DNA from: an uncultured Opitutia bacterium
GTDB lineage: Bacteria > Verrucomicrobiota > Verrucomicrobiia > Opitutales > Opitutaceae
Length of the DNA stretch: 64,000 nucleotides
NCBI GenBank assembly: GCA_903862955.1
Contig: CAIPAH010000025.1
Span: 1 to 64,000 of the forward strand
Reading direction: 5' to 3'
Made by a program: the position numbers and the translations under genes. Each line of letters opens with the position of its first letter. Position 1 is the first letter of the stretch. The notes below the pieces were generated by a model. The model ran no database searches, had not been told where the DNA came from, and was given only the letters and a program-made list of their open reading frames with translations. Positions 40,751 through 45,317 of this stretch are shown piece after piece.

Positions 40751-41200
40751 AGCTTTGGGGCCGGTAAGCCGGATTCTGTTCCACGCCTCGCGGCGTTTCG
40801 GTCGTTATTTCTCTCGCGGCTACCTTGCGGCGGCCACGCCCTCCGCTGCCGCTTGCGCGGGCGCAGGAGGGTGCGGCATACCCGCGACTATGGGACGGGC
40901 CGCCCAGTCGCCTATTTTGCCTTGCACCAGATGGGGTTTTTCGTGCCGCCGACGTCGCCGTCGGCGCGGTGGGCTCTTGCCCCACCTTTTCACCCTTACC
41001 CCGCGGTTGCCCGCGAGGCGGTTTGTTTTCTGTGACACTGTCCGTCGCCGCGCTTTGAAACGCGGCGCCTGCGCGCGCCTTGCGGCTGGCGCAGCATCCT
41101 GCCCTGTGGTGTCCGGACTTTCCTCTCCGAATTTATCGGGCGCGGCGTTACCCGCGCCTTGGGATCAAAGAACTCGGAGCAACGACCAGGCCCCAAAGCT
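40751..41200 (-). ncRNA. rnpB: RNase P RNA, type A
   Basis: About 450 nt, the catalytic RNA of RNase P that matures the 5' end of tRNAs. Read on the minus strand, the 5' end AGCTTTGGGGCC pairs with the 3' end GGCCCCAAAGCT (P1 helix). Conserved blocks are present: GAGGAAAGTCCGGAC (41111-41125), CACAGGGCAGGATGCTG soon after, GGTAAGGGTGAAAAGGTG in the middle, and ACAGAATCCGGCTTA (40765-40779). A plausible promoter is TTGCCT and TACGTT, 16 bp apart and 13 bp upstream of the 5' end, which is inference. It lies after the methyltransferase gene on the same strand. Confidence 0.96.
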
Positions 41201-41255
41201 AAGGGGTCCAACGTAGAAATTCACCGGCCAAAGGCAAGACCGGGGACGCCCGGCG

Positions 41256-41888
41256 TCACCCCCCTGCTCGACGCCACACGTCCGAGCGCACCAGGCCCCA
41301 GTCCAACTCGCTGCGGCCGGCTGGTTGAAACCCATTTCGCCGCAGCCAATCGTCCGGCGGCGTCAACCGGCGCGCCGGCAGGCCGGTTACCCGCCGAAAA
41401 AAAGCATACATCAGCGCGTGCACTGCGAGCGCCCGCCACCGGGCGGGCCCGCGTGGAGGCAGCGCAAAGTCCACCAACAGCCAGACCGCATCCGGCGCGG
41501 CCCGGCGCGCGAGCGCCGCGACCACGGCGGCCAGCGTTTCCGGTGGAAAACAGTCGAGGAAGAAACAGGTGACGATGGCGTCGAATTCACCCCCGCCCTC
41601 CCAAGCGAGGATATCCCCGCAGTGCCAGTTCACCTGCTCTGCGCCAGGGCCGAGCCGGCGTTGGGCCCGGGCGAGCATGGCCGGGCTGGCCTCGACGCAA
41701 GTCAGCTCGGCCTCGGGGAAACGCGCGCGGCAGGCGGCGGCGAACTTTCCATGCCCCTCGCCGATACTGAGAATCCGCCGCCGGCCGCCCAGTTCACCCA
41801 GCCAGGCCGTGCGGGCGCGCTGCAGCCGGTCGCCCGCCAGGCATGCCTCCATCCAGTCGTAATGCCGCGCGAGCCGGTCGAAATTCAT
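41256..41888 (-). CDS. Class I SAM-dependent methyltransferase
   Basis: 210-residue methyltransferase. The SAM-binding motif I is ILSIGEGHGKFA (about 39-50) with the acidic end of strand 2 at LTCVEAS (about 62-68). A FDAIVTCFFLDCFP block (motif IV, about 104-117) follows. The aromatic, basic C-terminal half (AVHALMYAFFRRVTG) suggests a hydrophobic or membrane-associated substrate. The ATG at 41888 overlaps the end of the upstream membrane-protein gene by four bases. Substrate unknown; ubiquinone-like or lipid methylation is a guess. Confidence 0.82.
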   Translation of the reverse strand: MNFDRLARHYDWMEACLAGDRLQRARTAWLGELGGRRRILSIGEGHGKFAAACRARFPEAELTCVEASPAMLARAQRRLGPGAEQVNWHCGDILAWEGGGEFDAIVTCFFLDCFPPETLAAVVAALARRAAPDAVWLLVDFALPPRGPARWRALAVHALMYAFFRRVTGLPARRLTPPDDWLRRNGFQPAGRSELDWGLVRSDVWRRAGG

Positions 41889-42244
41889 GTCCACTGCCAG
41901 ATCAACCCCGCAATGATCGCCCCGCCCCCGTACGCCGCGACATCCCACACATCGCCGGTGGCCCGGGCGAAAAAATGCGGCGCGACGACTTCGGCCGCGA
42001 CGGACCAGACCGCCCAGTGCAACACAATCTCGGACCAGGTGGGCCGGGCTTCAGCCGGACGCCACTTGAATTTCTGGTGCAGCCAGAGCACGAGCGGCAG
42101 CGCCGCGGGGATGAGCAGGGTGTCGTTGAAATAGTTGCGCAGGAAATAACCCTTGAAGCTCAGGGGAATCATCCACCGGTTGACCGTGTAACCGCCACAT
42201 GCGGCCAGGCAGACCGGATCCCAGGCGTACCGGAACCTGCTCAC
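41885..42244 (-). CDS. Hypothetical membrane protein
   Basis: 119-residue protein that I do not recognise, with a GTG start overlapping the stop of a 30-codon ORF (GTGA) and a stop overlapping the methyltransferase start (ATGA). Hydrophobic segments are at about 43-55 (LLIPAALPLVLWL), 70-90 (EIVLHWAVWSVAAEVVAPHF) and 100-117 (VAAYGGGAIIAGLIW). The arginine-rich N-terminus (SRFRYAWDP) lies in the cytoplasm by the positive-inside rule. It is co-expressed with the methyltransferase. Confidence 0.7.
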   Translation of the reverse strand: MSRFRYAWDPVCLAACGGYTVNRWMIPLSFKGYFLRNYFNDTLLIPAALPLVLWLHQKFKWRPAEARPTWSEIVLHWAVWSVAAEVVAPHFFARATGDVWDVAAYGGGAIIAGLIWQWT

Positions 42245-42333
42245 AGCAACGCCGCAATTGCCAGGCCCACCCCAAAAGCCAGGAGGATTTTCATCAGCAC
42301 CTGCGGATAGGCGGAAAAATGATCAGGGAGCAT
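42241..42333 (-). CDS. Possible 30-residue membrane peptide
   Basis: A 30-codon frame from ATG 42333 ends in TGA within the GTG start of the next gene. It begins MLPDHFSAYPQVLMKILLAF and ends with a hydrophobic GVGLAIAALL tail, i.e. one membrane segment of about 16 residues. It has no ribosome-binding site, but a perfect 7-bp hairpin (ACCATTG/CAATGGT, 42337-42353) lies just before it. The GTGA overlap with the next gene is the same coupling seen elsewhere in the window, which supports it being translated. Confidence 0.5.
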   Translation of the reverse strand: MLPDHFSAYPQVLMKILLAFGVGLAIAALL

Positions 42334-42449
42334 GCCACCATTGGTTCAATGGTTTGGGCAGGAAGGCAAATCCGGATCGCATCACGCCGGTGGAGTGGAA
42401 AACCCGCCCCCTGACTTGCCTCGGCGTCACGGAAAACAATAGTCCGCAA

Positions 42450-43817
42450 ATGCAGCTCCACGCCGAAAGCGGCACCGGTCTCCATCAGGAAGACGTCAAA
42501 CGCCGCCACATCCTGCCCAAGGCCCTGGTCATCGGGCTGGTCGCCGGCGTGATTTCCTCCGCGTTCCGCGAGGCGCTGCAATGGTCGGAGACGCACCGTA
42601 TTGCCTGGCTCAACCGCCTGCCCCCGGTCGGGAGTCTGCTCGCCGCATTGTCCCTCGGTGCCGTGGGTGGCGGGGTGGGCTTGTGGCTCGTGCGGCGTTT
42701 TGCCCCCGAAACCACAGGCAGCGGGATCCCGCACATCAAGTCCGTGGTGCTGGGCGAGGAGGAGTTACGCTGGTGGCGCGTCCTGCCGGTCAAGTTTTTC
42801 GCCGGCATCGCGAGCATTGGCGGGGGCCTGGCGCTGGGACGCGAGGGTCCGACAATCCAAATTGGCGGCGCCACCGGGCTCATGGTGTCGCGGTGGTTCC
42901 GCGTCCGCCCCGGCGAGGGCGAGCGCAAGGCCCTCATTTGCGCCGGAGCGGGCGCCGGCCTCGCCGCGGCCTTCAATGCGCCGCTGGCCGGGGTCATCTT
43001 CGTCCTCGAGGAGCTGCATGGCGCCTTCACGCCAGTCATCTTTGTCGCGGCCTTCCTCGCGTGCGTCACCGCCGATGTCGTGTGCCGGATCATGACGGGT
43101 GAAACGCCGGTCTTCGGCCTGCACGGCATGCCGGTGCCCTCGCTCACTGCATTGCCCGTGGCCTTGGTCGTAGGAGTGATGGCCGGCCTCGGCGGGGTGG
43201 TTTTCAACCGCTGCCTGCTGGCCAGCCTGGATGCCTTTGACCGGCTGAAGCGCTGGCCGCCGATGGCCGTCGGCGCCCTGACCGGCCTGGTGGTCGGCTT
43301 GGCCGCTTGGATTTATCCGCAGGTGAGCGGTTCGGGCGGACTGCTGGCCGAACGCGCGTTGGCCGGGGAATTTTCGATCCGCGTGGTGCTCCTGCTGATC
43401 GTGGCTCGCTTTGCCCTGACGATGATCAGTTACGGCTCCGGATCCGCCGGCGGCATTTTTGCCCCGCTGCTGGTGATTGGAGCGCTCGGGGGTCTGGCGG
43501 TGGGGAACACCGCCCATGCCCTCGCCCCCGCCTGGGCCGGGCATCCGGAAGTCTTCGCAGTGCTGGGCATGGGGGCCTTGCTTACCGCCATCGTGCGGGC
43601 GCCTTTGACGGGCATCGTCCTGATGATCGAGCTGACCGGGAAATACGATTACATGCTACCCCTGCTCGTGAGCTGTCTGGTCGCCTATGGGATCGCTGAA
43701 GGCCTGCGGGATTTGCCAGTTTACGAGGCGTTGCGCAGACGGGCCAAACACCGGATGGCGGCGGCATCCGCGCTTGGGCTCAAGGAACTCGGAACCTCGA
43801 CCAAGCCCCAAGGCTAA
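42450..43817 (+). CDS. ClC family chloride channel/antiporter
   Basis: 455-residue polytopic anion channel or proton-coupled exchanger. Selectivity-filter motifs are seen: GSGIPHI (about 95-101), GREGPTIQIGG (about 133-143), GSAGGIFAP (about 343-351, usual GxFxP) and the C-terminal helix tyrosine region. No CBS domains follow, as in the short bacterial ClCs. The last 14 codons and the stop (from about 43773) are encoded by sequence strongly resembling the 5' part of rnpB, so the natural C-terminus may have been altered. The start at 42450 is chosen because it comes shortly before the first helix. Confidence 0.9.
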   Translation: MQLHAESGTGLHQEDVKRRHILPKALVIGLVAGVISSAFREALQWSETHRIAWLNRLPPVGSLLAALSLGAVGGGVGLWLVRRFAPETTGSGIPHIKSVVLGEEELRWWRVLPVKFFAGIASIGGGLALGREGPTIQIGGATGLMVSRWFRVRPGEGERKALICAGAGAGLAAAFNAPLAGVIFVLEELHGAFTPVIFVAAFLACVTADVVCRIMTGETPVFGLHGMPVPSLTALPVALVVGVMAGLGGVVFNRCLLASLDAFDRLKRWPPMAVGALTGLVVGLAAWIYPQVSGSGGLLAERALAGEFSIRVVLLLIVARFALTMISYGSGSAGGIFAPLLVIGALGGLAVGNTAHALAPAWAGHPEVFAVLGMGALLTAIVRAPLTGIVLMIELTGKYDYMLPLLVSCLVAYGIAEGLRDLPVYEALRRRAKHRMAAASALGLKELGTSTKPQG

Positions 43818-43856
43818 GGGATTCAACGGAGCCCCAGGCCAAAGCCAAGCTGGGGC
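43773..43856. repeat. Degenerate copy of the rnpB 5' region
   Basis: Positions 43773-43828 align without gaps to 41158-41213 with about 47 of 56 matches, in the same orientation. That part of rnpB is its 5' end plus about 13 bp upstream; similarity continues in weaker form to the putative -35 region (GGCCAAAG..AAG). The P1-strand counterpart here is GCCCCAAGG. It covers the 3' end of the ClC gene and the gap before the convergent kinase gene. It is a partial duplication, not a functional RNA, because the rest of rnpB is missing. Confidence 0.75.
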
Positions 43857-43874
43857 AGGTCAAGCCGTGCTGCA

Positions 43875-45317
43875 TCATTCCGCGCCTGCCGCGGTCGAGA
43901 GCGTGAAAAAAAACGTGGCGCCGGCGCCGGGCAGGGACTCGGCCCAGATGCGGCCGCCATGCCGCTCGATGACGCGGCGCACCGTGGCCAGACCCACGCC
44001 GGTGCCTTCAAACTCGTGGGCGTGGTGGAGCCGCTGAAAGACGCCGAACAGCTTGTCCGCGTCCTTCATGTCAAAACCGACCCCGTTATCCCGCACGAAA
44101 TAGACCGGGACACTTTCTTTCTGGTCTTCGGCCAGGCCGACCTCGATCAGCGTTTGCGCGCGGGGCCGGGAATACTTGAGCGCATTGGAGAGGAGGTTGA
44201 CGAAAACGATCCGCAGCAGGGCGGGATCGCCCTCCGCCGGGGGCAGCGACCCGAGCCGCAGGTCGACGCTGCGCCCGCTGCGCTCGCCGGCCAGATCCTG
44301 AAACGCTTCGCGGCAGAGCTGGCCCAGGTCAACGGTCTGGCGGGTCAGTGCCTGCCGGCCGAGCCGGGAAAAGGCCAGCAGGGCGTCGATCAGCTCACTC
44401 ATCTGCGCCGAACCGTCACGTATCATCCGGAGGTGGCGTTGCGCCTCGGCCGGCGGCAGGTGAGCCCGCGCATCCAGCAGCACGTCGGCCAGCCCCGCGA
44501 TGGCGCGCAGCGGCGTCCGCAGGTCGTGCGCCGCCGAGGAGCCGAAGGCCTCCAGCTCGTCGTTGGCCGACTCCAGCTCCGCGGTCCGCTCCCGCACGCG
44601 TTTTTCCAGCAGTTCGTTCTGCGCCTGGATCTGCTCCAGCATGTGGTTGAAGGCGTCGGTCAGCAGGCCCAGCTCGTCCCGGCCGTGCTTCCGCGCCCGC
44701 ACGGTGTAGTCCTGCCGGTCGGACACAGCCTGGGCGGTTTCCGCGAGAGCGAGGATCGGCCGCGAGATCTGCTGCTGCAGCTTCCGCGACAGCGTGTAGG
44801 CCACGAGGGACGAAACCACCACGACCAGGATCGCGATGCCGCCATACAGCCGGAACCGCTCACGCATCGCCTCCATGTCGGACTCCAGGTAAATCGTGCC
44901 GAGCCGCTGACTGCCTTTCACCTGCACGACCGGCGCGAACCCGCTCAGGTGCCCGTCCGCGAACCGGTAGCCGTCCGCGCCGGGGCGTGCGGGAAAAAAG
45001 CGCTCGGGGGCATCGACGGGATAGCGGGCAAACAGCGCCCCCCGCTGGTCGTAAAGCGCCGCCGCCACGATGTGGTGCTCCGCCTTCAGCGCGCGGAGGA
45101 TTTCCCCGGCGTCGGTCTGGTTGTCGAAGGCCAGCGCGGCGGTGCTGTTGGTGGCGATGATCTCACCGAGCGTGGAAAGCTGGCGCACCGCGGTTTGGCG
45201 GAAGGTGGAAAACTCATAGGCCAGGAAGGTCGCGCAGGTCAGCACGAGCACGACACCGCTGGTGGCCAGAATGATGGCCATCAGCTTGCGCTGGATCGGG
45301 ATATCCTCGAACGCCAT
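43875..45317 (-). CDS. Sensor histidine kinase (CHASE8-HAMP-HisKA-HATPase)
   Basis: 480-residue membrane kinase. A transmembrane helix (about 11-33) is followed by an extracytoplasmic CHASE8-like domain (about 40-150, LYDQRGALFARYP), a second membrane helix (about 158-176) and a HAMP domain (about 177-232). HisKA has the phospho-accepting H264 in SAAHDLRTPLRAI, and the ATPase has NLLSNALKYS, DNGVGFDM and GTGVGLATV. It begins 2 bp after the YfiR gene stop and is in the receptor-YfiR-kinase operon. The output partner is probably the NarL-type regulator encoded 94 bp before the receptor gene. Confidence 0.93.
   Translation of the reverse strand: MAFEDIPIQRKLMAIILATSGVVLVLTCATFLAYEFSTFRQTAVRQLSTLGEIIATNSTAALAFDNQTDAGEILRALKAEHHIVAAALYDQRGALFARYPVDAPERFFPARPGADGYRFADGHLSGFAPVVQVKGSQRLGTIYLESDMEAMRERFRLYGGIAILVVVVSSLVAYTLSRKLQQQISRPILALAETAQAVSDRQDYTVRARKHGRDELGLLTDAFNHMLEQIQAQNELLEKRVRERTAELESANDELEAFGSSAAHDLRTPLRAIAGLADVLLDARAHLPPAEAQRHLRMIRDGSAQMSELIDALLAFSRLGRQALTRQTVDLGQLCREAFQDLAGERSGRSVDLRLGSLPPAEGDPALLRIVFVNLLSNALKYSRPRAQTLIEVGLAEDQKESVPVYFVRDNGVGFDMKDADKLFGVFQRLHHAHEFEGTGVGLATVRRVIERHGGRIWAESLPGAGATFFFTLSTAAGAE

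Follow-up and report, generated by a model that had tools for sequence, protein, structure and literature searches.

A decayed copy of the rnpB 5′ end beneath the terminus of a ClC gene in an Opitutaceae genome, and its probable origin

In the genome of an uncultured Opitutia bacterium, the gene for RNase P RNA (rnpB) and the end of a nearby gene for a ClC-type channel/transporter share a repeat that, judged by its letters, is the rnpB 5′ end with its promoter region. We consider it probable, at roughly 0.7, that an insertion, accompanied by a duplication of about 105 bp, left behind a whole rnpB and a stub of its 5′ end, and that the ClC gene now reads about 19 codons into this stub in the antisense direction. 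Positions below are those of the window, the whole stretch of 64,000 nucleotides that was analysed.

A direct repeat of the rnpB 5′ end

The intact rnpB is located at 40754-41193 on the minus strand, where RF00010, the model of class A RNase P RNA, is matched over its full length (positions 1-367) with 196 bits, above the gathering score. This gene is essential. Its 5′ end and upstream region constitute copy 1 of the repeat (41142-41246, minus strand), and copy 2 (43758-43856, minus strand) is a decayed stub of the same region, recognised both by alignment and by a sequence model of rnpB 5′ ends. An earlier, sequence-only reading of this DNA had matched 41158-41213 with 43773-43828 at 47 of 56 positions, without gaps and in the same orientation, and had seen the match continue weakly into the rnpB promoter area. 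Both observations were borne out by re-alignment: without gaps, 41158-41216 and 43773-43831 are identical at 49 of 59 positions (83%), and the gapped match of about 105 nt (41142-41246 with 43758-43856, local score 86) includes the region upstream of rnpB. The repeat thus holds approximately the first 52-61 nt of rnpB and 44-53 nt upstream of it, the transcript start being an estimate.

Might this similarity be due to chance or to a common base composition? The high GC content of both copies, and nothing more, favours this explanation, but the score of 86 is far above the maximum of 34 among 2000 first-order Markov shuffles (mean 19.9, sd 2.6), the control that the sequence-only reading had itself proposed, and above the maximum of 55 among 3000 random pairs of real 271-nt window pieces, in which draws with pieces less than 600 nt apart were dropped. 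In addition, the sequence model, for which 12 functional rnpB ends were used (11 from other genomes), matches the stub at 43758-43818 on the minus strand with 41.4 bits (E 4e-10) and covers positions 1-62 of its 74. Chance, to which we assign next to no probability, is refuted by these shuffle, real-pair and model controls.

As direct repeats, the two copies enclose a block of 2.5 kb (41247-43757, its edges uncertain by about 15 nt) that contains a methyltransferase gene, a small open reading frame (ORF) and the ClC gene. A pattern search of the 3.6-Mb genome that allowed up to three mismatches found these two copies only, with 0 control matches; because the rnpB 5′-end model also gave only two, a dispersed repeat family is ruled out. 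A BLAST search of the genome with the copy at the ClC gene misses the rnpB copy, with which it has no long exact word in common, and is uninformative on copy number.

Decay has affected one copy. Of 51 transcribed columns, the working rnpB departs from the majority state of 11 relatives in none, and the stub in 8, including positions that are invariant in 11/11 relatives. In a 142-column alignment, which also takes in columns outside the repeat, 50 columns differ between the copies, and the majority state is held by the rnpB copy in 39 of them, by the ClC copy in 3 and by neither in 8; because the departures fall mainly in the ClC copy, this is the decayed one. Upstream of the transcript, the stub has lost 5 nt and gained 1 in the alignment, a net loss of 4 nt. 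By eye, the minus strand of copy 1 reads TTGCCT, 16 nt and TACGTT as a -35/-10 pair (in plus-strand letters, the -35-like AGGCAA at 41232-41237 and the -10-like AACGTA at 41210-41215), and the same 16-nt spacing is readable in two genomes of the genus, G005 and G009; the corresponding words of the stub, TTGGCT and TCCGTT, stand 12 nt apart instead of 16. A scan of 41000-44000 for sigma-70 consensus promoters found none. There is no Rfam match at 43758-43856, and the stub is not a complete second rnpB.

The divergence of 17% between the copies within the 59 nt would also agree with a stub that represents the rnpB end of another species, brought in with the block by horizontal transfer. However, its differences at invariant positions are what decay would give, its sequence upstream of the transcript is closest to that of its own rnpB (28/42, with 25/42 for the best relative, G009, a modest preference), and it adjoins the kinase gene described below. 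We therefore regard a foreign stub as very unlikely.

Two further features of the repeat were considered. A hairpin seen by eye beside ClC (GCCCCAG/CTGGGGC) was rejected as a conserved element, since its folding energy is no better than that of shuffles (z 0.84, 0.14 and -0.72). A scan for terminator-like sites found none at the stub and five in the scanned region, against 2.5 expected, one of which (41239-41254, minus strand) sits on the outer border of the working copy.

The ClC tail and the other genes of the block

The ClC gene (42450-43817, plus strand) encodes 455 aa with a Voltage_CLC domain (E 1.4e-102); the match to PF00654 spans residues 76-416 and scores 343.8 bits against a cutoff of 24.8. 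Its start was picked by similarity to relatives within a frame that is open from 42258. According to the sequence-only reading, the match encodes the last 14 codons and the stop, and codons 442-455 with the stop do lie within 43773-43817; the gapped extension places the beginning of the common part near codon 437, so that, by the alignment and by comparison of ClC tails, approximately 19 codons and the stop (43758-43817, plus strand) are antisense to the stub.

This tail is private to the protein. A search for ClC gave matches in 28 of 38 genomes, nine of them, the own genome included, at 57% identity or more. The eight orthologues (57-73% identity) are located on a contig other than that of rnpB or, in G014, 3 Mb away from it. 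Comparison of the C-termini, which had also been suggested as a check, found the tail in 0 of the 8 aligned orthologues and also not in a ninth, 80%-identical protein. Among the aligned proteins (eight relatives and our own) the tails differ, ending at 432-453 aa as read and at 455 here, and the match reaches residue 433 in G005 and G009, which belong to the same genus, and 437-443 in the other six; the homology therefore fades at about the place where the repeat begins. The 80%-identical ClC, found in an Opitutia MAG (PLOH01000151.1) that gave the sole locus in a scan of contigs with our ClC, stops one codon past the matched part, at residue 441, and adjoins genes that by eye resemble those of ATP synthase. 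The 11.3 kb of this MAG locus (L136) yielded no rnpB and no homologue of the kinase, methyltransferase, small-ORF or TonB-receptor genes. A match to the nhaA-I riboswitch family lies downstream of the MAG ClC, at L136:6735-6787. Because the tails of relatives differ, the homology ends near the start of the repeat and the MAG protein stops at residue 441, it seems that ClC was deprived of its own stop at the junction and takes its present one from the stub.

The methyltransferase gene (41256-41891, minus strand; Methyltransf_25, E 3.5e-14) is paired with the small ORF of 119 aa (41885-42244, minus strand; no Pfam match). This pair occurs twice in the genome, at 41256-42291 and on contig C19 (L125:9013-10030), with 69% identity over 1032 bp of DNA; the methyltransferase paralogue there matches at 69%, the small ORF beside it at 56%, and the neighbours of the two pairs differ. 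The methyltransferase is also found at 42-46% in five other genomes of the genus, and further genomes gave weak matches only. The C19 pair is thus the nearest relative found of the pair in the block, and either a duplication within this genome or a double acquisition may account for it. A possible hydrophobic ORF of 30 codons (42241-42333, minus strand), its stop overlapping the start of the small ORF, was noted by eye.

The rnpB neighbourhood in relatives and a proposed history

How might a ClC gene have come to end on an RNA gene? Beyond the stub lies a histidine kinase gene (43875-45317, minus strand; HisKA and HATPase_c domains). In G005 and G009, the distance from the end of a homologue of this kinase to rnpB is 112 and 114 nt, and this interval is empty, without a methyltransferase or ClC gene. 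These kinases match only the C-terminal half of the product of 43875-45317 (59-60%), and because of this limit their orthology is a candidate one. Their kinase-rnpB site is likely to represent the empty site of the insertion. This gives a larger frame than that of the sequence-only reading, in which a duplicated rnpB edge had been caught inside a protein gene. A broken rnpB 5′ edge does form the end of ClC, as that reading held; the picture of a loose piece entering a resident gene is probably not the right one, because direct repeats frame the 2.5-kb block and the stub adjoins the kinase gene, where rnpB begins in the two relatives, so that ClC was probably moved onto the stub.

The arrangement around rnpB is variable in the genus. 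Among the 9 of 11 other genomes in which rnpB was found, two have the kinase arrangement, six have upstream of rnpB, directly or at most 357 nt away, a gene for a Cys-rich protein ending in ...YWES, and G003 has neither gene there. Two genomes were inspected outside the genus; a Cys-rich gene of similar kind is present in G012, whereas G031, in which the contig stops at this point, gave no upstream ORF. The TonB-receptor gene found downstream of our rnpB also neighbours rnpB in G002, G006 and G011, but not in G005 and G009; because the TonB-receptor and kinase neighbours are distributed differently among relatives, the neighbourhood is a mosaic that has been rearranged more than once. In such a mosaic, the minority position of the kinase arrangement (2/9 genomes) weakens the insertion reading. 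No ClC, small-ORF or methyltransferase gene was found in the 15 rnpB stretches that were compared (12 of the 15 in one comparison), some of which (L064, L070 and L076) are short upstream where contigs end. As a separate observation, the Cys-rich ...YWES gene of G002, G006 and G011 (L064, L067 and L071) has its TAG stop inside TTAGCTTTGGGG, the start of rnpB; in these relatives as well, the rnpB edge thus holds the end of a protein gene, though of one encoded on the strand of rnpB itself.

We propose the following order of events. The ancestor would have carried the histidine kinase gene directly upstream of rnpB, as its homologue is placed in the two same-genus genomes. A 2.5-kb segment with the methyltransferase gene, the small ORF and ClC would then have been inserted approximately 52-61 nt inside rnpB, in an event that duplicated about 105 bp of target sequence, reaching from the insertion point to beyond the promoter. 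The outcome would be a complete rnpB that kept its promoter and a stub, consisting of promoter and 5′ end, left beside the kinase gene. Because rnpB is essential, survival would have been limited to insertions that kept a whole copy of it; the stub would have decayed once no RNA function constrained it, and the inserted ClC gene, whose own final codons and stop had been lost at the junction, would have come to end on the antisense strand of the stub.

A duplication of 105 bp is too long for the target duplication of a transposase, which also counts against the insertion reading. Candidate mechanisms are single-crossover integration of a circle that held a piece of rnpB, and a staggered break at which a fragment was captured. 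The same end state would also result from a tandem duplication of a longer segment that began with the rnpB promoter, followed by a deletion between nt 52-61 or so of the first rnpB copy and the end of ClC. Direct repeats with a truncated first copy are equally expected under such a history, the variable rnpB neighbourhood of the relatives indicates that rearrangements occur here, and a second, paralogous methyltransferase/small-ORF pair exists on another contig. However, it would require that ClC and the methyltransferase gene lay downstream of rnpB beforehand, and in the relatives that were compared both are found on different contigs or at a great distance; we consider it rather unlikely. 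The junction itself is known from one contig of one draft assembly, and no genome with an intermediate state of the insertion was found among those examined.

A different possibility is that the rnpB 5′ end served as an att site, that degenerate att sites survive as the two copies, and that the integrase has since been lost. In agreement with this, direct repeats flank a block whose genes have other locations in relatives, and the gene is preserved in full by one copy, as happens at tRNA and tmRNA att sites. Several observations stand against it. First, the block, which consists of the methyltransferase gene, ClC and an ORF without a Pfam match, contains no detectable integrase or recombinase, and neither a transposase nor an integrase was found among the 15 window proteins scanned. 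Second, the GC content of the block (0.67-0.68) is close to that of the window (0.66), which thus gives no compositional sign of foreign origin. Third, it would be unusual for an att site to consist of a gene 5′ end and to share 105 nt of homology. Fourth, stubs were not seen to recur. The rnpB 5′-end model (E <= 1) matched all 12 genomes of the genus and showed a stub in our genome only; in the other 11 there was no comparable second rnpB 5′ end, the best place outside rnpB scoring 18.4 bits, and G004 and G007, with weak places only (16.3 and 18.4 bits) and no rnpB found, are uninformative on stubs. In the family, where filters were stricter and 32 candidates were scored per genome, 123 of 150 genomes matched, and among the matches listed second places reached at most 22.1 bits, with the exception of G302. 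That genome has two strong places on two contigs, L184:2807-3260 and L185:3202-3653, both of them full RF00010 genes, and may be a mixed assembly. An order-wide BLAST search matched 23 of 273 genomes at one place each; it misses the known stub and is silent on stubs. We thus hold site-specific integration to be very improbable, and give scarcely any credence to the broader idea that the rnpB 5′ end is a true integration site of the lineage, which tolerates incoming DNA because a duplicated edge rebuilds the essential gene, and that leftover edges recurrently become the C-termini of neighbours.

Meaning and comparison with known systems

Under the insertion history that we favour, the locus is probably a small evolutionary scar, neat but ordinary, and not a new system or mechanism. 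It nevertheless offers a readable case of a genome surviving when DNA is inserted within an essential non-coding RNA gene, and a case of a protein C-terminus recruited from the antisense of an RNA gene, which bears on the evolution of gene ends. It also calls for caution in annotating the end of ClC and the rnpB stub.

The closest likeness is to Campbell-type (single-crossover) insertion-duplication, in which direct repeats flank the insert, one target gene is whole and the other is truncated. Here too, direct repeats flank the insert and one of them completes the target gene; in contrast, the present case arose naturally, is old and has decayed, it shows no donor circle, and its membership in this class is that of a candidate. 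Integration at tRNA and tmRNA att sites with gene restoration resembles it in that a duplicated edge keeps an essential RNA gene whole, and differs in that the 5′ end is used here rather than the usual 3′ end, that no integrase was found and that the event was not seen to recur. The portions of the literature that we searched contain no report of an integration site at an rnpB edge or of a bacterial rnpB stub of this kind. For eukaryotes, RNase P RNA pseudogenes are reported in the Bcheck paper (PMC2996960). As described there, these resemble the stub in being additional, broken RNase P RNA gene copies that lack a good promoter, whereas the copy found here is bacterial, comprises a 5′ fragment only, lies beside an insertion and has its opposite strand reused as coding sequence.
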